A stretch of 64,000 nt of DNA from Methanimicrococcus blatticola (GCF_004363215.1 NZ_SNYS01000005.1:372001-436000), one strand, 5' to 3'; positions 36,368 to 44,907 are shown, counted from the first letter of the stretch. A program made the numbers and translations. Notes: generated by a model from the letters alone, not told the origin.

Positions 36368-37006
36368 ATGAAAATCGCAATTATCGGTGCTTCGGGAAAA
36401 GAAGGAAAATGTTTGACCGAAGAAACTGTTTTAAGAGGGCATGACGTGACGGCTATTGTCAGAGACGCTCAAAAAGTCAAGATGTCCGATGTCAAAATTT
36501 TGGAAAAAGATTTGTTTGACTTAACTTACAATGATTTGAAAAACTTTAATGTCGTCATTGATGCTTTCGGCGCGTGGACACCTGAGACGCTTCCGCTTCA
36601 TCAAAAATCATTAAACCACCTGGCCGGCCTTTTGAAAAATCATGAAGAAATCCGTCTTCTCGTTGTCGGCGGCGCCGGCAGTTTGTATGTCGATTCGGAC
36701 CACAAAATCCGTTTGATGGATACGCCCGAATTTCCGGACGCGTTTGTTCCGCTCGCAACTGCTATGGGAATTGCTTTTGATGATTTGAAGAAAACGGAAG
36801 GCGTGAATTGGACATATTTGAGCCCCGCCGCCGATTTCGCTGCCGACGGTGAAAGAACAGGGAAATATAAACTCGGCGGCGATGAATTCATTGTCAACAG
36901 TGCCGGAAACAGTCAAATTAGTTATGCTGATTATGCAATTGCCATGATTGATGAAGCTGAAAACGGGAAATTTTTGAAACAAAGATTTTCAGTTGTTTCG
37001 GAATAA
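36368..37006 (+). CDS. NAD(P)-binding Rossmann protein, NmrA/flavin-reductase-like
   Basis: About 212 residues from ATG 36368, which has GAGG 9 bases upstream. The N-terminus KIAIIGASGKEGKCLTEE is the dinucleotide-binding loop of atypical SDRs (GxSGxxG). VVIDAFGAWTPET and LLVVGGAGSLY follow as in the family of stand-alone NAD(P)H-binding proteins. It is divergent from an HxlR regulator, a common pairing for electrophile or quinone response. Its 3' end (KFLKQRFSVVSE, stop and terminator) is duplicated at 44148-44232, where the copy reads KFLKTRFSVVSE. The gene itself is intact. Confidence 0.9.
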   Translation: MKIAIIGASGKEGKCLTEETVLRGHDVTAIVRDAQKVKMSDVKILEKDLFDLTYNDLKNFNVVIDAFGAWTPETLPLHQKSLNHLAGLLKNHEEIRLLVVGGAGSLYVDSDHKIRLMDTPEFPDAFVPLATAMGIAFDDLKKTEGVNWTYLSPAADFAADGERTGKYKLGGDEFIVNSAGNSQISYADYAIAMIDEAENGKFLKQRFSVVSE

Positions 37007-37049
37007 TTAAGACACAGAGATTTTCTCTGTGTCATCTTTTTTGAAAAAT
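36966..37049 (+). repeat. Direct repeat, left copy (island boundary)
   Basis: 84 bases covering the last 13 codons of the NAD(P)-binding gene, its stop codon and its terminator. It matches 44148-44232 with seven mismatches and one one-base gap by my alignment. The pair brackets 7.1 kb of foreign-looking genes. Confidence 0.85.
37012..37042 (+). terminator. Terminator of the NAD(P)-binding protein gene
   Basis: ACACAGAGA (37012-37020) and TCTCTGTGT (37024-37032) form the stem, followed by CATCTTTTTT. The duplicated copy at 44195-44225 keeps most of the stem (GCAGAGA/TCTCTGT) and the T run. Confidence 0.7.
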
Positions 37050-37242
37050 GAAATTGAAAATATATCATTATTAAACATTATAAAAATGGCTTATTTTTAG
37101 ATGATAGAAATCAATATTAAAACAGAAACAATTCGACAGTGATTGTTTTTTTGAGGATTAATGTTATATAATAATAATGACAGATGACAGTCAAAGAATA
37201 ATCTAACAGTATCCTAGAAGAATAAAACCTGTGAGGAATTCA

Positions 37243-38487
37243 GTGACTGGTTCAGCAATCAATTTTGATAAAAATTTAAAAGAGTTGGGAATTCAGGCAG
37301 ATACTCTGAAAACACTCAATAACCAATCCATTTACACTGTCGGCGAACTCTTAAGAGCTGCCAATAAAATCAATCCGTCAGCAACCAAAATAGAAATTAT
37401 CAAAAAAATCAGGGAAATGACAGGACTCAGTTTAAAAGAAGCTAAAGAAATTGCGGACTGCGGTCTTCCTTCTGCAGAGTGGAAACAAGAAATCAACATT
37501 GAACCGAGTGAAACGGCTTATTTTGATAAAGAATTAGCAGAATTTGAGATTCCTGCAGACACTTTGAAAATATTATATAAACAATCCATTTACACCGTCG
37601 GTGAGCTTATAAGGGCGGTTGGTAAAGCGAATCCTTCGGCAACGAAACTGGAAACAGTTAAACTAATTAAAGAAATGACAGGACTCAATTTATTATCTTC
37701 AAAAGAAATTGCAGAATACGGATTTCCTCCGGCAGATTGGAAACAAAAAACCCCCTCGGCTTCTGAAGAAAAAGCACCGATTCTAAAAGAACCGATTATT
37801 AAAGACGTTAAACCTATTAAAGACGTTAAACCGGATTTGGAAGAGCCGCCTAAAATGCCGCCCGAAAAACCGCCTCAAGAAACAGTCGAAAATCCGACCA
37901 CTGATTTTTATTTAACACTTCCCGAAGTGCTGACGGAACTCGGAAAAGGAATCGGAAAAGCACAACGGGAACTGGACATGCATTCAATCGAAGTCCAGAA
38001 TTCCATCTTAAAAGATAAAGAGCTGGCTGATTACGGTATAAACGCCACCTGGTACGTGATGCCTGAAATTCAATTCGATCTCAAAATGGAATATTCCGTC
38101 ACTGAAAAAAGAACGGAAGAAGGAGAAGTTACGAGTCCGGTCAAAAAAACAGCGAGAAATATCGAGATCATTCCCTCCAATATGAAATACAATACATTGT
38201 TTGAATCTGAAAGGCGGGAAGAAAGCACACTTTCTATAAAATTCAGGCCGATGCCGCCGCCTCAGTTTACAATAATCCGCACGGAAGTTCCGAATCTTTA
38301 CGGAATGACGAAAAATGAAGCGGAAGCAGTTCTGAAAGAAGCGGAGATTGAAGCGGAATTCATATCAGACGCGGAGCCGGACGCAAAAGATTCCGAGACG
38401 AACGTGGTTTTTCAAACCGTTAACCCCGGCGATTTTCTGTTGAATGATGAGAAATTGACGGTGTATATTGAACCCAGATATGATTGA
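37243..38487 (+). CDS. Island protein A: twin L12-like repeats, shared beta domain and PASTA-like end
   Basis: About 414 residues. GTG at 37243 is preceded by GTGAGG at the right distance; that GTG at 37231 is less likely. Two ~75-residue repeats (near residues 8-78 and 96-166) each combine a helical hairpin (QSIYTVGELLRA) with a helix pair, KIEIIKKIREMTGLSLKEAK, resembling the C-terminal domain of ribosomal protein bL12. A Pro/Lys-rich linker follows, then the island's shared domain (VLTELGKGIGKAQRELDMHS; TWYVMPEIQFDLKMEY) and a PASTA-like domain (EVPNLYGMTKNEAEAVLKEA to the end). No signal peptide. Function unknown; the layout suggests a structural or scaffold protein. Confidence 0.65.
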   Translation: MTGSAINFDKNLKELGIQADTLKTLNNQSIYTVGELLRAANKINPSATKIEIIKKIREMTGLSLKEAKEIADCGLPSAEWKQEINIEPSETAYFDKELAEFEIPADTLKILYKQSIYTVGELIRAVGKANPSATKLETVKLIKEMTGLNLLSSKEIAEYGFPPADWKQKTPSASEEKAPILKEPIIKDVKPIKDVKPDLEEPPKMPPEKPPQETVENPTTDFYLTLPEVLTELGKGIGKAQRELDMHSIEVQNSILKDKELADYGINATWYVMPEIQFDLKMEYSVTEKRTEEGEVTSPVKKTARNIEIIPSNMKYNTLFESERREESTLSIKFRPMPPPQFTIIRTEVPNLYGMTKNEAEAVLKEAEIEAEFISDAEPDAKDSETNVVFQTVNPGDFLLNDEKLTVYIEPRYD

Positions 38488-38605
38488 TTGTATATTGAAA
38501 AATTGAAAATTGTATCTTGGAAAATCAAACGCAAAAACCGGATACTGAAAATGAAATCGGATTATAGAAGAAGCGCAAAAGGAAAAGAGAAGGGAGCGAA
38601 CGAAA

Positions 38606-39079
38606 ATGGTAACTGATGCAGATTTTAAAAGATTGGAAGAGCTCATCCGGCAGATGAATAACAGACTGGACGCGATTGACGAACGATTAAGGACGCTTTC
38701 GGCGAAGTCAATCTCCGCCCCAATCGCTTCCGCCGCGAGTGGCGGAGCAGACGAAAGTACAGAAATTAATCGGCTGAAAAGCCGCGAACTGCAACTGCAA
38801 TCGGAACTTGATTCCGTTAAAAAATTAACCGATAATTCATACACAAAAGAAGATGTCACGGAATATTTCGGCGCGGTAATCAACGATTTCAATGAGAAGA
38901 CGAAAACTGAAGACAAAGACGTGGATTACATCATCAGCAACATGGAAGTCGATCTCAAAACTCAAATTTATAAAGATAAGGAGCTCCGAATGTCCGGAGC
39001 GGATATATCAAAGACCGGCGGAGACGGCATCAGTTCCGTAAAAATATCAATTAAGGCCGTACCGAAACAAACGAAATGA
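38606..39079 (+). CDS. Island protein B: coiled coil with a short shared-domain-like tail
   Basis: 157 residues. Residues 5-30 and 48-72 are coiled-coil-like (FKRLEELIRQMNNRLDAIDE; INRLKSRELQLQSELDSVKK), separated by a Ser/Ala/Gly linker. The C-terminal ~80 residues (DVTEYFGAVINDFNEKTK; YIISNMEVDLKTQIYKDKEL; ISSVKISIKAVP) recall the helix-then-beta layout and the 'KDKEL' of proteins A, G and H, but more weakly. GGGAG lies 12 bases before the ATG. It may be an adaptor that oligomerises through the coiled coil. Unknown function. Confidence 0.55.
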   Translation: MVTDADFKRLEELIRQMNNRLDAIDERLRTLSAKSISAPIASAASGGADESTEINRLKSRELQLQSELDSVKKLTDNSYTKEDVTEYFGAVINDFNEKTKTEDKDVDYIISNMEVDLKTQIYKDKELRMSGADISKTGGDGISSVKISIKAVPKQTK

Positions 39080-39282
39080 ATCGAACATAAAATGTCGAAC
39101 AAAATGAATTGAATATAAAATGAATTGAACACAAAAGAGAAAAGCAAGAACAAAATCGCAAACAAATGAAACAGAGTAAAAAGAAAATGCGCAACCGGTA
39201 AACCGCGTGAATGAACAGAAATATGGAATAAATGAGAAAACTGGAATAAAATGAGAAAAGAAATAAAGAGGAGATAAAGAAC

Positions 39283-39912
39283 ATGGCAGATGTAGGACAA
39301 GAATTATTGAATGTACCGTTCCCTGAAATGGTTTTGAATTTGGCAACGGCAATTGCGGAAGGACAATTTAAGTTGGATCAGACAAGCTGCAAAATTGCGG
39401 CGATGATGGGCGACGCTCAAAAATATCCGATTGAATTGCCGGACCTTGCGGACGATAACAAACCGATCAAGACATCTATGATCGGCGCGGGATTCCAGCC
39501 CACGTTTTACCAATTCACTGACACAATTATCGAAGTGAAAATGGCTATTACGATGACAAAAACCACTGAGAAATCCGCATCCGTTACGGCAAAAGTGGGT
39601 TTCGGCTGTTTCTCGGCGTCCGTTAACGCCTCTTATTCTTCGAAATACACGTATTCGGTCGAAGGATCCAGTCTTCTCCGAACGAAAATTACACCGCTTC
39701 CGCCAAACACATTCATGCAGCAGCTGCTTGATTTGAAAGCGCAGAAAGAACAGATGAAATTCCAGATGGAAATGAAAAAACTGGAAGCAGCCCTTGAAAG
39801 AGAACAAAAAGAGCTGGACAAGAAGCTTGCTGAAGAAGAAGAGAAGGAAGCGAAAACTGAAAGCAGCGACAGCAGCAGTGGAAGCGGCAGCGGCAAAAAG
39901 ACAACGGACTAA
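39283..39912 (+). CDS. Island protein C: shared helix-beta domain protein
   Basis: 209 residues. Start ATG with GAGGAG 10 bases upstream. The N-terminus ELLNVPFPEMVLNLATAIAE leads into GQFKLDQTSCKIAAMMGD and then SMIGAGFQPTFYQFTDTIIE-VKMA, the island's shared helix-beta signature. A middle beta region with Ser/Ala repeats follows, then EGSSLLRTKITPLPPNTFMQ. The C-terminus is a long charged helix (residues ~145-195) and a Ser/Gly tail. Protein D is a close paralogue, so C and D arose by duplication. No membrane segment or signal peptide. The general layout resembles DUF2589-type proteins, but I cannot show homology. Confidence 0.65.
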   Translation: MADVGQELLNVPFPEMVLNLATAIAEGQFKLDQTSCKIAAMMGDAQKYPIELPDLADDNKPIKTSMIGAGFQPTFYQFTDTIIEVKMAITMTKTTEKSASVTAKVGFGCFSASVNASYSSKYTYSVEGSSLLRTKITPLPPNTFMQQLLDLKAQKEQMKFQMEMKKLEAALEREQKELDKKLAEEEEKEAKTESSDSSSGSGSGKKTTD

Positions 39913-39944
39913 TTAAACTTATAAAATCAATAGGAGAAAATGAA

Positions 39945-40565
39945 ATGACAAATATCGGACGCGAACTGCTGAATGTTCCTTTCGGAGAAATGGTGACTCA
40001 AATCGCGAGCTCAATTGCGCAATCTCAAGCGGAATTGGACAGAGAATCCATTGAGATTTTGAAAATGATGGGAGATAAGGAGAATGCTCCCGTAACGCTG
40101 CCGCATATGCGATACAAAGACGGCAAATTCGAAGATGTCGATATTACAACATCCATGATCGGTGCCGGCTTCCAACCAACGTTTTATCAATTTGCGGATA
40201 CAGTCATTGAAGTGAAAATGGCAATGTCGGTCGCCCAAGGATCCGAATATGAAAGAAAAACAAGCGGCGAAGTCAAATCAACATCTACATCTGCAGTAAG
40301 GAGCGGAAGAAATTATTCTTACAGAAGTGTTGTGACATCAACGCCGATTGATGCGACTTATACCAGCAAATACAACTTTAATCAGGAAGGATCCAGCCTC
40401 TTACGCACTCGATTGGTGCCGGTTCCGCCAAATACGATTGTTCAGCGTCAGATTGATTTGCGCGCTCAGGCAATGCAGCTGGAATTCGACTTAGAAGCAA
40501 AGAAGCTTGAATCTGAAATTGCGCAGGCTGCTGCCGACATGGAAGCAAAAGAAGCAAAGAAATAA
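39945..40565 (+). CDS. Island protein D: paralogue of C
   Basis: 206 residues, 32 bases behind C, with AGGAGA before the ATG. ELLNVPFGEMVTQIASSIAQ, SQAELDRESIEILKMMGD, SMIGAGFQPTFYQFADTVIE and EGSSLLRTRLVPVPPNT align with C throughout. D has an extra Ser/Thr/Arg-rich loop (residues ~105-130) and ends in an Ala/Glu helix. Two consecutive, divergent copies suggest that the proteins form a hetero-oligomer or alternating assembly (inference). Confidence 0.7.
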   Translation: MTNIGRELLNVPFGEMVTQIASSIAQSQAELDRESIEILKMMGDKENAPVTLPHMRYKDGKFEDVDITTSMIGAGFQPTFYQFADTVIEVKMAMSVAQGSEYERKTSGEVKSTSTSAVRSGRNYSYRSVVTSTPIDATYTSKYNFNQEGSSLLRTRLVPVPPNTIVQRQIDLRAQAMQLEFDLEAKKLESEIAQAAADMEAKEAKK

Positions 40566-40589
40566 CCCGGCGTCTGACAGGAAATTAAA

Positions 40590-41525
40590 ATGAGCGCGAA
40601 AGGAGATGAAAAAGCACTTGCGGATTCCATTCTCCTGAACGCTGACATTTTGTCGGAAGAGTTTGACGATGAAGAAGAAATTGAAGAAAATGCACAAGCC
40701 GGCTCGGAATCAACGCCTGAGCCGGTAAAAGAACAAACGGACCCGCTTTCAATTTCTATTTCCATTGAAGAAGAACGTCCCAAATACGAAACGGAAAAAA
40801 AGAAAAAAGAATTTTCCGATTTCATCCGAACCGGCGGCAAGAAAGCTGACCCGCTTTCTCCTGAGAAAACAATTCAAGGAAAAAGAAATGGAAAGCGGAT
40901 TGAAACTGAGAAGAATAAAACAATTTCATTTTCATCCGGACAGCCTTTTTCGAATCATTCGGAAAGTAAAAAAAAGCCGAAGTTCGGTGATTTGAGAACG
41001 ACAAACAATTCATCAAGACCAATAAACACCTTTTCAGGATCAACAAACACATTTTCAAGACCAACAAACAGCTCTTCGCGAACAGTAAACGGTTTAGCGG
41101 GAACAGCAGACAGCAGAAAAGAGGCGGGAAAAAAGAAAAAACCGTCTGAAATTCAAAAAAGATTTTTGTTCAGCGAACCGATACGCCGACAAAAAAAGAA
41201 ATCTGAGCCGTTTGCCGCGGAAAAAAGAAGGTCGGATCGGATAAATCAAATCAGAAAAGAACCGCCGCGGGAAAAAAAGAAGACATCAGCAATCGGATTT
41301 GAAATCTCAAAGCCGCCTCAGCCGGATTTGACGAAAAATCAAAAAAGAGGAGCGGAAAGAAAAACGTTGATGATGTCAAATTCGAAAAAGCCGGCTCAGA
41401 AAGACGACATATTTTCAGACAAGATGACAGACAAAAAAGATATGGGCATGATGCTGACGGAACGAAAGAAAAAGACCGGAAGCGGCATGGAAACGGATAT
41501 GATGAGGGCGAGAAATGAAAGATGA
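40590..41525 (+). CDS. Island protein E: disordered, lysine-rich protein
   Basis: 311 residues, 24 bases behind D, ATG with AGGA upstream. After an acidic N-terminus (residues 15-60: EEFDDEEEIEEN, then PEPVKEQTDPL) the chain is almost entirely low complexity and basic, with Lys/Arg blocks and an STNTFSRPTNSSSRT-type repeat near residues 145-170. No globular domain is evident. Opposite charge at the two ends would allow self-association or bridging of other subunits. Its last 11 bases overlap gene F, so the two are translationally coupled. Confidence 0.65.
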   Translation: MSAKGDEKALADSILLNADILSEEFDDEEEIEENAQAGSESTPEPVKEQTDPLSISISIEEERPKYETEKKKKEFSDFIRTGGKKADPLSPEKTIQGKRNGKRIETEKNKTISFSSGQPFSNHSESKKKPKFGDLRTTNNSSRPINTFSGSTNTFSRPTNSSSRTVNGLAGTADSRKEAGKKKKPSEIQKRFLFSEPIRRQKKKSEPFAAEKRRSDRINQIRKEPPREKKKTSAIGFEISKPPQPDLTKNQKRGAERKTLMMSNSKKPAQKDDIFSDKMTDKKDMGMMLTERKKKTGSGMETDMMRARNER

Positions 41526-41994
41526 AGATGTCATTAAAGGCATTGTCGAATTATTAAAAGGCATCAATAATTCCGCCGCCGAGCTGGTAGGCAGCGGAAA
41601 GTTAGAAGAAGCCGTGAAAATGTATGAGCTCGGAGAGCAGACATCTCTTAAATTTTACTATGCAGACGGCGCTTTTACGAACCGATTGTATATCGCGAAG
41701 ATTCATATTATGGAAGAGAATTTTGAAGCGGCGGCAGACTGTTTGGATAGGCTTTCCGAATATGATTCGGTTCAAAATGCCGAAAGAGAGTTGGCGATTT
41801 TTTACAAAGAAGCGGGCATGATTTTGTTAAAAGCCGGCATGGAAATGGAAGCGGCGGGAAATTTAACGGGCGCGCTGAGATTGTTTGAAAAAATTCAGCC
41901 GTATTTGAACAAAAAACGCGCGGATGTCGTTGAAAAAGAAATTATTATGTTAAAGGCCAAAGTTGGTGCCGGCGTTGGCGCAAATTCAACTTGA
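41515..41994 (+). CDS. Island protein F: TPR-like helical protein
   Basis: 159 residues, all alpha. Repeating helix pairs of ~35 residues (LVGSGKLEEAVKMYELGEQT; IMEENFEAAADCLDRLSEYD; MEAAGNLTGALRLFEKIQPY) have the small-residue pattern of tetratricopeptide repeats, so a protein-protein scaffold is likely. It starts inside gene E (ATGAAAGATGA overlap) and is followed after ~18 bases by gene G. No catalytic motif. Confidence 0.7.
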   Translation: MKDEDVIKGIVELLKGINNSAAELVGSGKLEEAVKMYELGEQTSLKFYYADGAFTNRLYIAKIHIMEENFEAAADCLDRLSEYDSVQNAERELAIFYKEAGMILLKAGMEMEAAGNLTGALRLFEKIQPYLNKKRADVVEKEIIMLKAKVGAGVGANST

Positions 41995-42012
41995 GAACAG
42001 GAGGAGTCATTT

Positions 42013-43758
42013 ATTAGAATTACCAAATTGCCCGGTGTCAGCCCTGATGTCCTTCAAATATTGTTGGAAAAATCAATTTACACGATAGAGGAATTTTTGG
42101 AGCAGACGACGCCGGAATCCAGAATTATACGTATTCAAACGGAAAAGTTGACTCGGGAAGAAATCCTTCGGCTGAAGGAAATTGCATCTCAGATTGAAAT
42201 AATTCCCGACCAATTTTATCCGGATACGCATTCGGTCTGTACACCGGAACTGAAAATAGATTACTTGCCAATCAGTACATATCTCAAAAAGAAACTGGAT
42301 GCTCAAGGCATATCAACAGTTCAATCGCTGAATGACCACGCCGTGACTCCTGCATTCAGGATAGAATTTGCAGAACTCGTTGGGGTTTCTGAAAAAACAG
42401 CGAACATGCTTTTGATTTTTGTGAACCTTTTGGAAACGTTTGAAGAAGACCGTGATAAAGTTTTTGTTGATTTTACAAGAGATTTGTTTACGGAATTAGT
42501 GCTTGTTCCCGGAATTAACATAAATATGATTTCGATTCTTCGAAGTGCTTTTGCAGGTACTGTTTGTGATTTAGAAGAAATTATGAGTCATGAATCGGAA
42601 AAAACGGAGCTTGCCGAGAAAACAAAAATGAGTCAAACGGCATTATTTGATCTTTTGAAAAAAGAGCAAGAGATCGAACGTTTGCCGGAAACGGAAGAGG
42701 ATATCAAAAAACGTTTTTCGATAGATGTACTTCCGATCATGTATGAGCTTTCCGGATTTAGCGATACGATGGTTGAAGGTATTTGGAAAGGATATACCGG
42801 GCCCCGAACTTTAGAAGCATTACGAGAAAGAACAAAAACCGTCAAACAGATCGAAGAGATTCAAAAAGCCTCCAAAATCAAATCTTTTGGAATTCTTCCA
42901 AGAATGGCTGATCTGATGAGCGTCCCGAGAATGACACCTGAGGATGCCTTTAAATTGCTAAGCCGCGGAATAAATTCCGCCAAGGAATTGGCAAATGTTG
43001 AGTTTTTGCGTGACGGCGTGATTCAAAATGTGAGTTTTGGAATCCCGAATACCCGCATCATTCCGTATATTATTGCCGCAAGAGAAATTGATGAAACCGG
43101 ATTTGAACCATTCGCAGTTTCTGATGATCCCGAAATGCCGGCGACACCTGCCGAAGAAATAGAATCAGACAGTAAAATGGATTTGCCGGAAATGCTGACT
43201 CAGCTCGGCAGAGGAATCGGTCAGGCGCAGCGTGAATTGGATTTAAACGCTCTGAAAATGCAAAAGGAAATTCTGAAAAGTCGCGACCTGACAGAATACG
43301 GTCTTCAGCCGACATGGTATTCAATGCCGGAAGTTGATTTTACGCTGAAAATGGAATACAATGTGGCAAGTGAAAGATCGGAAGACGGAACCGTTTCGCC
43401 CGGCCGCGTTGAAATTATACCGGTAAACGCCAAATACACCAGTCTGTTTACGTCTGCCGCAAAAGAAGAGAGTTCTCTGACGATTAAGTTCGTTCCGATT
43501 CCGCCATCTGAAGTATTGGTGCGCCGCCGCGAAGTGCCTGATATGACAGGAATGACGGCAGAAGAAGCGAAAACGGCTCTTTCTGAGAGAGGAATTCGGC
43601 CAATATTTTACACGGCCATAGATATGCCTCCCGAATATGCATTCGGAGATGACAGAACGGAAATAACATATCAATCGGTCAAATCCGGCGAATATTTGGG
43701 AATCGGAGAAGAGATTTTTGTGTTGGCCACATTCAGAAGACAGGCAAGAGCAGCATGA
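42013..43758 (+). CDS. Island protein G: HhH/DUF4332-like repeats, shared beta domain and PASTA-like end
   Basis: About 581 residues if translation starts at the ATT at 42013 (MRITKLPGV), which is 6 bases after a strong GGAGGAG; the nearest normal start is TTG at 42028, too far from that site. The first ~380 residues are a series of helix-hairpin-helix-like modules of the DUF4332 kind (GISTVQSLNDHAVTPAFRIE, ELVGVSEKTANMLLIFVNL; LMSVPRMTPEDAFKLLSRGI). Then comes the shared domain (MLTQLGRGIGQAQRELDLNA; PTWYSMPEVDFTLKMEYNV) and a PASTA-like domain (EVPDMTGMTAEEAKTALSE). The last two are closely related to protein A. Probably a large scaffold; function unknown. Confidence 0.65.
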   Translation: MRITKLPGVSPDVLQILLEKSIYTIEEFLEQTTPESRIIRIQTEKLTREEILRLKEIASQIEIIPDQFYPDTHSVCTPELKIDYLPISTYLKKKLDAQGISTVQSLNDHAVTPAFRIEFAELVGVSEKTANMLLIFVNLLETFEEDRDKVFVDFTRDLFTELVLVPGININMISILRSAFAGTVCDLEEIMSHESEKTELAEKTKMSQTALFDLLKKEQEIERLPETEEDIKKRFSIDVLPIMYELSGFSDTMVEGIWKGYTGPRTLEALRERTKTVKQIEEIQKASKIKSFGILPRMADLMSVPRMTPEDAFKLLSRGINSAKELANVEFLRDGVIQNVSFGIPNTRIIPYIIAAREIDETGFEPFAVSDDPEMPATPAEEIESDSKMDLPEMLTQLGRGIGQAQRELDLNALKMQKEILKSRDLTEYGLQPTWYSMPEVDFTLKMEYNVASERSEDGTVSPGRVEIIPVNAKYTSLFTSAAKEESSLTIKFVPIPPSEVLVRRREVPDMTGMTAEEAKTALSERGIRPIFYTAIDMPPEYAFGDDRTEITYQSVKSGEYLGIGEEIFVLATFRRQARAA

Positions 43759-44102
43759 CGGAAGAATCAGACAGAAACGCATCAAACGCATCCATAAGTG
43801 CGATTCAGAGAAGCTTTATTGAAGGCGTTGCGGAGATTCTGACGGAACTGAAAGATGACCTCTATCAGGTTCAAAATAATCTAAATGCGTATTCGAAAGA
43901 AACTCAAAAAGAGATTTTGAGAAGCCGGGAACTTTCCGAGCAGGGTGTTACACCGATATGGTATACGATACCTGAAATAGAGCTGACGATTAAAATGGAA
44001 TATGTTGAGCATGAAGAGAAAGTGATTGAAAATAATGAAGAGAAAATTGTAAAAAGAGTTAAGATGATTCCTGTGACGCGAGGAACCGGTCGGATAAAAT
44101 AA
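43755..44102 (+). CDS. Island protein H: minimal shared-domain protein
   Basis: 115 residues, start ATG overlapping the stop of G (ATGA). It consists of little more than the shared domain: EGVAEILTELKDDLYQVQNN with a following helix, then TPIWYTIPEIELTIKMEYVE and a basic beta hairpin. It therefore defines the boundaries of the domain at about 85 residues. It is the last gene before the right direct repeat. Confidence 0.65.
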   Translation: MTEESDRNASNASISAIQRSFIEGVAEILTELKDDLYQVQNNLNAYSKETQKEILRSRELSEQGVTPIWYTIPEIELTIKMEYVEHEEKVIENNEEKIVKRVKMIPVTRGTGRIK

Positions 44103-44147: not shown

Positions 44148-44232
44148 GGAAATTTTTGAAAACGAGATTTTCAGTTGTTTCGGAATAATTTAGATGCAGA
44201 GATTTTCTCTGTGTCTTCTTTTTTTGAAAAAT
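44148..44232 (+). repeat. Direct repeat, right copy (island boundary)
   Basis: 85 bases matching 36966-37049, including 13 codons of a gene 3' end (KFLKTRFSVVSE and stop) and the terminator stem. There is no upstream part of that gene here, so it is a fragment. The convergent minus-strand gene ends inside it. Confidence 0.85.
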
Positions 44233-44518
44233 TCGGGATGATTCCTTTGTCTTTATAAACTTCCGCTAATTTTTCTTTTGTCAAAGGACAGGAAACGAGG
44301 TCGTCAAATTGTTTGCGGTCTAATGAAAGTTGATTTTTCATAAGTGATAAAATGCTGCCGCTGTATTCTGTGACGCCGTGGCTTGTATATGTGACAAATT
44401 CTGTTTTGTTTTCCTTGAAATGATACGTATATCGTTTATGAGCACCTTTTCTTGTTTCGCGGAAACCTTTTTTGAGAAGAGCTGATTCGATATCTTTTGT
44501 TTTATAAACAGAGGTCAT
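44171..44518 (-). CDS. HicA-like predicted toxin
   Basis: 115 residues. The N-terminal half (KTKDIESALLKKGFRETRKG, then AHKRYTYHF) resembles the HicA double-stranded-RNA-binding-like fold with its catalytic His in GxH; here the motif reads GAH. The C-terminal ~25 residues extend into the duplicated direct repeat, so the tail (KKEDTEKISASKLFRNN) is encoded by the antisense of the terminator and gene-end copy. The ATG overlaps the upstream stop by one base (TAATG), showing coupling to the preceding gene, the usual antitoxin place. Family call is tentative. Confidence 0.5.
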   Translation of the reverse strand: MTSVYKTKDIESALLKKGFRETRKGAHKRYTYHFKENKTEFVTYTSHGVTEYSGSILSLMKNQLSLDRKQFDDLVSCPLTKEKLAEVYKDKGIIPNFSKKEDTEKISASKLFRNN

Positions 44519-44907
44519 TAAACTTCCTCCGCGTATTCTAAAAGCAGATGTTTTAATTGAACGGCGCCTGCTGTCAAAACAGACTCATCTTCCAAAACAT
44601 ATTCTTCCCAGAGATAATAAAAACTTATTTCAAATTCTGCGGCGGCTTTTCCGAAATCTTCATTGAATGAAAAGATTTTTAGAAGCTTGTTTTCAAAAAT
44701 ATAGCGTTTTGTTCCTTCTTCATAAATGACATCTAAATGAAGCGGTTTAATCAATTTCAGCGGAACATTCGGATTGGTGAAATGAATCAATTCAAAAGAA
44801 GCTTTATCGCCTGATTTTGATAATTTGATTCGGTCAAAAGATGATGAATCTAATTTGTTTGATGATAAGATATCAAAAAATATGTTTTTAGCTGAACTTG
44901 AAACCAT
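44518..44907 (-). CDS. Predicted antitoxin partner (HicB-like)
   Basis: 129 residues. An N-terminal region of unclear type is followed by a short beta strand and a helix pair with the pattern FSFNEDFGKAAAEFEISFYY and LWEEYVLEDESVLTAGAVQL, which is common in archaeal partners of HicA-like proteins. It is upstream of, and overlaps by one base, the HicA-like gene. No DNA-binding domain is obvious. The pair lies between the island's right repeat and tRNA-Leu, a typical accessory position. Confidence 0.4.
   Translation of the reverse strand: MVSSSAKNIFFDILSSNKLDSSSFDRIKLSKSGDKASFELIHFTNPNVPLKLIKPLHLDVIYEEGTKRYIFENKLLKIFSFNEDFGKAAAEFEISFYYLWEEYVLEDESVLTAGAVQLKHLLLEYAEEV

Follow-up and report, generated by a model that had tools for sequence, protein, structure and literature searches.

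The window analysed here, a 64,000-nucleotide stretch of the Methanimicrococcus blatticola genome, holds an operon of eight co-directional plus-strand ORFs (A to H, positions 37231-44102; Table 1). We propose, with a probability that we put at about one half, that it encodes a soluble, cytosolic hetero-oligomeric assembly built from a superfamily remotely related to Pfam DUF2589, with paired paralogues carried on HHH/PASTA scaffolds.

Table 1. Genes of the operon and the direct repeats that flank it (window positions)
Feature	Coordinates	Strand	Description	Evidence
Left copy, 83-nt direct repeat	36966..37048	+	3' end of upstream NAD(P)-binding-like gene plus terminator-like hairpin	repeat search, DNA alignment, terminator scan
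A	37231..38487	+	two HHH/L7-L12-CTD-like repeats, linker, beta-type domain (residues ~227-345), PASTA	Pfam, beta HMM 8e-26, internal repeat
B	38606..39079	+	gamma family: coiled coil plus short C-terminal strand region, VPK end	gamma HMM 2e-27
C	39283..39912	+	alpha-type domain (predicted helix plus long beta hairpin), charged C-terminal helix	alpha HMM 4e-77, AlphaFold2 pLDDT 76.7
D	39945..40565	+	C paralogue, alpha-type	alpha HMM 2e-68, tree
E	40590..41525	+	basic, low hydrophobicity, probably disordered; N-terminal motif DSILLNADILSEEFDDEE common to positional homologues	composition, N-terminal comparison
F	41515..41994	+	TPR-like putative adaptor	Pfam TPR_14 6e-4 (below cut-off), homologues in place
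G	42028..43758	+	DUF4332/HHH_5 N-terminal region, beta-type domain (residues ~384-496), PASTA	Pfam, beta HMM 6e-28, AlphaFold2 domain model
H	43755..44102	+	beta-type domain without last strand; stops at right-hand repeat	beta HMM 5e-11, positions 8-92 of 131, junction
Right copy, 83-nt direct repeat	44148..44230	+	weaker extension back to 44101	repeat search, DNA alignment; single copy in congener G003

The shared domain was traced in all window ORFs of at least 50 aa with HMMs that included only homologues from elsewhere. The beta profile matched G and A (Table 1), followed by D (1e-23), C (2e-21) and H, with the next window ORF at 0.24; the alpha profile matched C and D, then G (3e-13), A (2e-11) and H (0.015). 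The two profiles align with each other at an hhalign probability of 99.8% (E 5e-28; shuffled-column control, z 52). Judged by these comparisons, alpha and beta are one superfamily, and A, C, D, G and H, out of the eight operon proteins, carry one common domain, as the first-pass annotation had noticed. That annotation also gave B a weak copy of the domain, which our comparisons do not support: B was found by the gamma profile only, and its hhalign probability against alpha and beta is 1-5%; it belongs to a separate, co-conserved family. Nor do we keep H as the bare, minimal form of the domain. It covers only part of the beta model, the last strand being absent, and its stop codon (44102) falls just where the flanking repeat begins; H thus looks truncated, and is probably a truncated copy.

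The description of A and G as scaffolds with N-terminal helical repeats and C-terminal PASTA domains held up. PASTA scores 37.5 bits in A and 26.8 bits in G, both above the Pfam cut-off of 23.2; the N-terminus of A consists of two repeats of ~77 aa, each with an RpoA-CTD-like HHH (below cut-off) and an L7/L12-CTD-like helical pair, and that of G is DUF4332/HHH_5 by Pfam. C and D are, as had been proposed, tailed paralogues by their alpha matches, with a C-terminal helix in the model of C. For E, earlier called a disordered polycation, the basic character (pI 9.7) and the small number of hydrophobic residues are clear, and disorder is only probable. In most positional homologues of E the motif S[ILV][LF]L[ND] occurs close to the N-terminus; at one locus (L003) a similar acidic motif is located towards the C-terminal end of a larger protein. 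Gene E also contains tandem 21-nt repeats (window 40996-41100). All the other operon proteins are acidic. F is TPR-like, with homologues at the same operon position in five loci (L001, L005, L006, L066 and L105), but its TPR_14 match falls below the Pfam cut-off. There is no usable Pfam match for B, C, D, E or H. Among A-H we saw no transmembrane-like segment, no visible export signal and no recombinase, and family searches returned no enzyme in the window operon.

An Archaeoglobus gene cluster has been termed 'DUF2589 related' (PMC3949148). We fetched DUF2589 loci and made profile-profile comparisons with shuffled-column controls. The alpha family aligned with DUF2589 (PF11655) at an hhalign probability of 95 (E 5e-8, z 13.8) over 147 columns, which is most of the domain, and the beta family aligned with the adjacent partner of DUF2589 at a probability of 92 (E 7e-7, z 18); DUF2589 against its own partner gave 98. 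The alpha HMM also picks up DUF2589 proteins directly at two loci (L110 and L111, E 1e-6). The Pfam DUF2589 model itself matches 2 of 33 alpha members (best E 9e-4), short of Pfam membership, and neither C nor D at E<=1. By profile comparison, then, the domain is remotely related to Pfam DUF2589, itself a family of unknown function, with C and D being DUF2589-like and A, G and H resembling the operon partner of DUF2589. At one locus (L117:7843-12317), genes for an Amidase_3 protein and a Tle1-like lipase stand in line with the DUF2589 pair.

The predicted monomer structures of the two types are alike in topology, both at modest confidence. The AlphaFold2 model of C (33 sequences; pLDDT 76.7, pTM 0.52) has two helices, one at 13-43 and one C-terminal, with long strands at 75-100 and 115-139 between them, and that of the G domain (pLDDT 75.5, pTM 0.54) has a helix at 6-37 and three strands. 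Foldseek searches of the PDB gave no significant match for the alpha model (best E 0.05, to long beta-hairpin stems and ring collars) or the beta model (best E 0.29), and the sole match in PDB sequence searches was L7/L12, for A. An unnamed viral protein in BFVD (A0A516MP19) matched the model of C with E 1e-5 and TM 0.46/0.53.

The same operon had been suggested for a search in other archaea and bacteria, and it recurs at 37 loci. With C as query, 28 loci were found in genome contigs of Clostridia, Bacillaceae, Halanaerobiaceae, Bacteroidales, Methanomassiliicoccaceae, Spirochaetaceae, Deltaproteobacteria, WOR-3, Rhodobacteraceae, Elioraea, Methanophagales, Methanosarcinaceae and Nitrosocaldus. 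The three-family kit thereby crosses the boundary between bacteria and archaea, occurring in at least nine phyla (Bacillota, Bacteroidota, Spirochaetota, Myxococcota, Pseudomonadota, WOR-3, Methanobacteriota, Thermoplasmatota and Nitrososphaerota). Two or more paralogous alpha/beta genes are present in 34 of the 37 loci and a B-like coiled-coil gamma gene in 32, often accompanied by HHH and PASTA modules. Gene order is also conserved: Youngiibacter has a long form, A-B-C-D-E-F, identical in order to the window, and a compact form consists of alpha, beta and gamma, the gamma gene being frequently fused to PASTA arrays and HHH. A further conserved gene, the fourth, often adjoins compact operons; it is small (80-109 aa) and has no Pfam family (L018:3077-3319, L016:13742-14005, L108:4289-4618 and others). 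One locus (L068:9550-13524) encodes a protein of 1324 aa that combines 12 PASTA domains with a gamma region; its host belongs to a methanogen family thought to be without peptidoglycan. Occurrence is patchy (21 of 60 genomes, including the operon's own; in two bacterial phyla, 2 of 349 and 9 of 345), implying that the operon is dispensable in most relatives. One plasmid also gave a match.

The operon sits at a defined site, flanked by two 83-nt repeat copies that are 89% identical. A congener (G003) presents the empty site, with window positions 37042 and 44500 joined and one repeat copy. Two minus-strand genes lie beside the insert at window 44171-44907, of which a small one, HicA-like by eye, overlaps the right repeat; the same congener retains the second of these genes without the HicA-like gene. 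A precise deletion between the repeats may instead have emptied this site, and G003 alone cannot separate the two events; acquisition is favoured both by the tree and by the other congeners. The alpha tree places C and D in a clade of 20 rows (100/98) together with the copies of the congeners and with rows from Bacillota, Bacteroidota and Methanomassiliicoccaceae, and D groups with Youngiibacter and Bacillaceae (95/83), apart from other Methanosarcinaceae. Two further congeners (G001 and G005) have their own, differing version of the operon in other surroundings. Since the nearest kin of C and D in the tree are Bacillota and Bacteroidota proteins rather than those of other Methanosarcinaceae, the operon was probably gained by horizontal transfer, which is the simplest reading.

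We infer pairing, oligomerisation, adaptor roles and function as follows. The alpha subunits (C and D) and the beta subunits (within A and G, and truncated in H), each predicted to have a long amphipathic helix ahead of its beta strands, would pair with one another and with the coiled-coil gamma protein B to form a structural core. A and G would anchor the beta subunits to N-terminal modules of HHH/L12-like type and to PASTA domains at the C-terminus, F would be an adaptor through its TPR-like region, and E, basic and probably disordered with its conserved short N-terminal motif, would be a linker. The most likely use would be as a platform on which client proteins are held or presented, among them possibly the lytic enzymes that are adjacent in some relatives. 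Self-assembly of such a structure is plausible. PASTA domains are usually extracytoplasmic, and we count against the assembly that PASTA is present yet an export signal is not, that no PDB fold supports an assembly role, that both structural models are of modest confidence and that the operon occurs so sporadically.

Those adjacent enzymes raise the alternative that the operon is an antagonism or lysis apparatus, displaying or delivering wall- or membrane-degrading enzymes, with PASTA docking on bacterial peptidoglycan and uncharged alpha hairpin tips entering the membrane. An M15 peptidase with PG_binding (L108), a GH5 protein (L106) and a metallophosphoesterase (L002) lie in or near operons, and DUF2589 pairs adjoin Amidase_3 together with a Tle1-like lipase, GH19 (twice), DUF922 and PG-binding proteins, all picked by eye and without a background rate; such an enzyme occurs in only about 3 of the 37 alpha/beta/gamma loci, and none is in the window. 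The alpha hairpin tips are sparse in charge (mean DEKR 0.12 versus 0.39 in beta), a suggestive, pattern-based figure that covers about 20 of the 33 alpha sequences, and one report describes archaeal peptidoglycan hydrolases that kill bacteria (PMC12352652). The operon proteins show no export signal, and we think this apparatus unlikely. A broader version, in which an undescribed class of widespread, horizontally moving multi-paralogue assemblies of the DUF2589 superfamily would use alpha hairpins and PASTA or PG-binding parts to display or deliver lytic enzymes, strikes us as quite doubtful; if true, archaea and bacteria would turn such assemblies on their neighbours or employ them to remodel the envelope.

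The three families could otherwise supply the adaptors in a system of conflict or signalling, by analogy with Trypco1 and Trypco2; Trypco2 (PF19631) is an adaptor domain of ternary conflict systems (PMC7159879). All three show a weak likeness to Trypco2 (z 9.3 for beta, 6.0 for gamma and 5.0 for alpha), which is among the weak Pfam matches of alpha and beta members and has a similar helix-then-strands order, but the hhalign probabilities are just 10-50%, the best over 20 helix columns, and the operon has no MoxR, vWA, protease or nucleotide-signal gene, nor did PADLOC return anything convincing. We hold such an adaptor role to be decidedly improbable. Less probable again is a structural complex associated with nucleic acids, in which the HHH modules and basic E would bind DNA or RNA and the paralogues would bridge. 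HHH_5/DUF4332 occurs in G and in A homologues, A has RpoA-CTD- and L12-like repeats, and the pI of E would suit the idea; HHH/SAM-like modules, however, often bind proteins instead, and the alpha-beta-gamma cores at L007-L009 exist without an HHH protein. We accordingly keep the soluble hetero-oligomer as our preferred reading.

Comparison with known systems leaves the operon as a candidate undescribed system, as the first-pass annotation had proposed. That annotation had recognised in it no phage, secretion or gas-vesicle module, and family, phage, IMG/VR and PADLOC searches likewise matched no described phage, secretion or defence module. As a phage structural module it fails in that C had no tblastn match in phages and alpha none in IMG/VR, the PHROG matches of A falling mainly on its L12-like helices; as a known anti-phage defence system it fails in that PADLOC gave only weak, coiled-coil-like matches of B (E>=0.0025). 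Trypco2 resembles alpha and beta in being a small protein with a helix followed by strands, but membership is rejected (best E 0.05; no match in 25 operon-bearing genomes), and so is a ternary conflict system, whose MoxR ATPase, vWA and effector partners are absent among A-H by Pfam, NCBIfam and PADLOC. PASTA is known from Ser/Thr kinases and penicillin-binding proteins, which A and G resemble in carrying it above the Pfam cut-off; unlike these, the window operon has no kinase, penicillin-binding protein or membrane segment. The repeats of A share a helical pair with the ribosomal L7/L12 CTD (Pfam 3e-11; PDB chains E 5e-4), but 27 of 67 profile positions are matched and A is no ribosomal protein. 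In the open-access papers searched, we found no description of such a multi-gene system, nor of DUF2589 and its partner as one.

The closest likeness is to DUF2589. The profile searches reached no well-described family of known function, and the shared domain, first called unrecognised, is by its profiles not wholly so: its superfamily has a Pfam name, with no function attached. At the DUF2589 loci that we read we noticed no gamma, HHH or PASTA proteins, unlike in the window operon. Like alpha and beta, however, DUF2589 and its partner occur as adjacent paralogue pairs or trios, and the profile matches are colinear, so that two orphan gene sets would merge into one testable superfamily made of a DUF2589-like subunit and a partner-like subunit.
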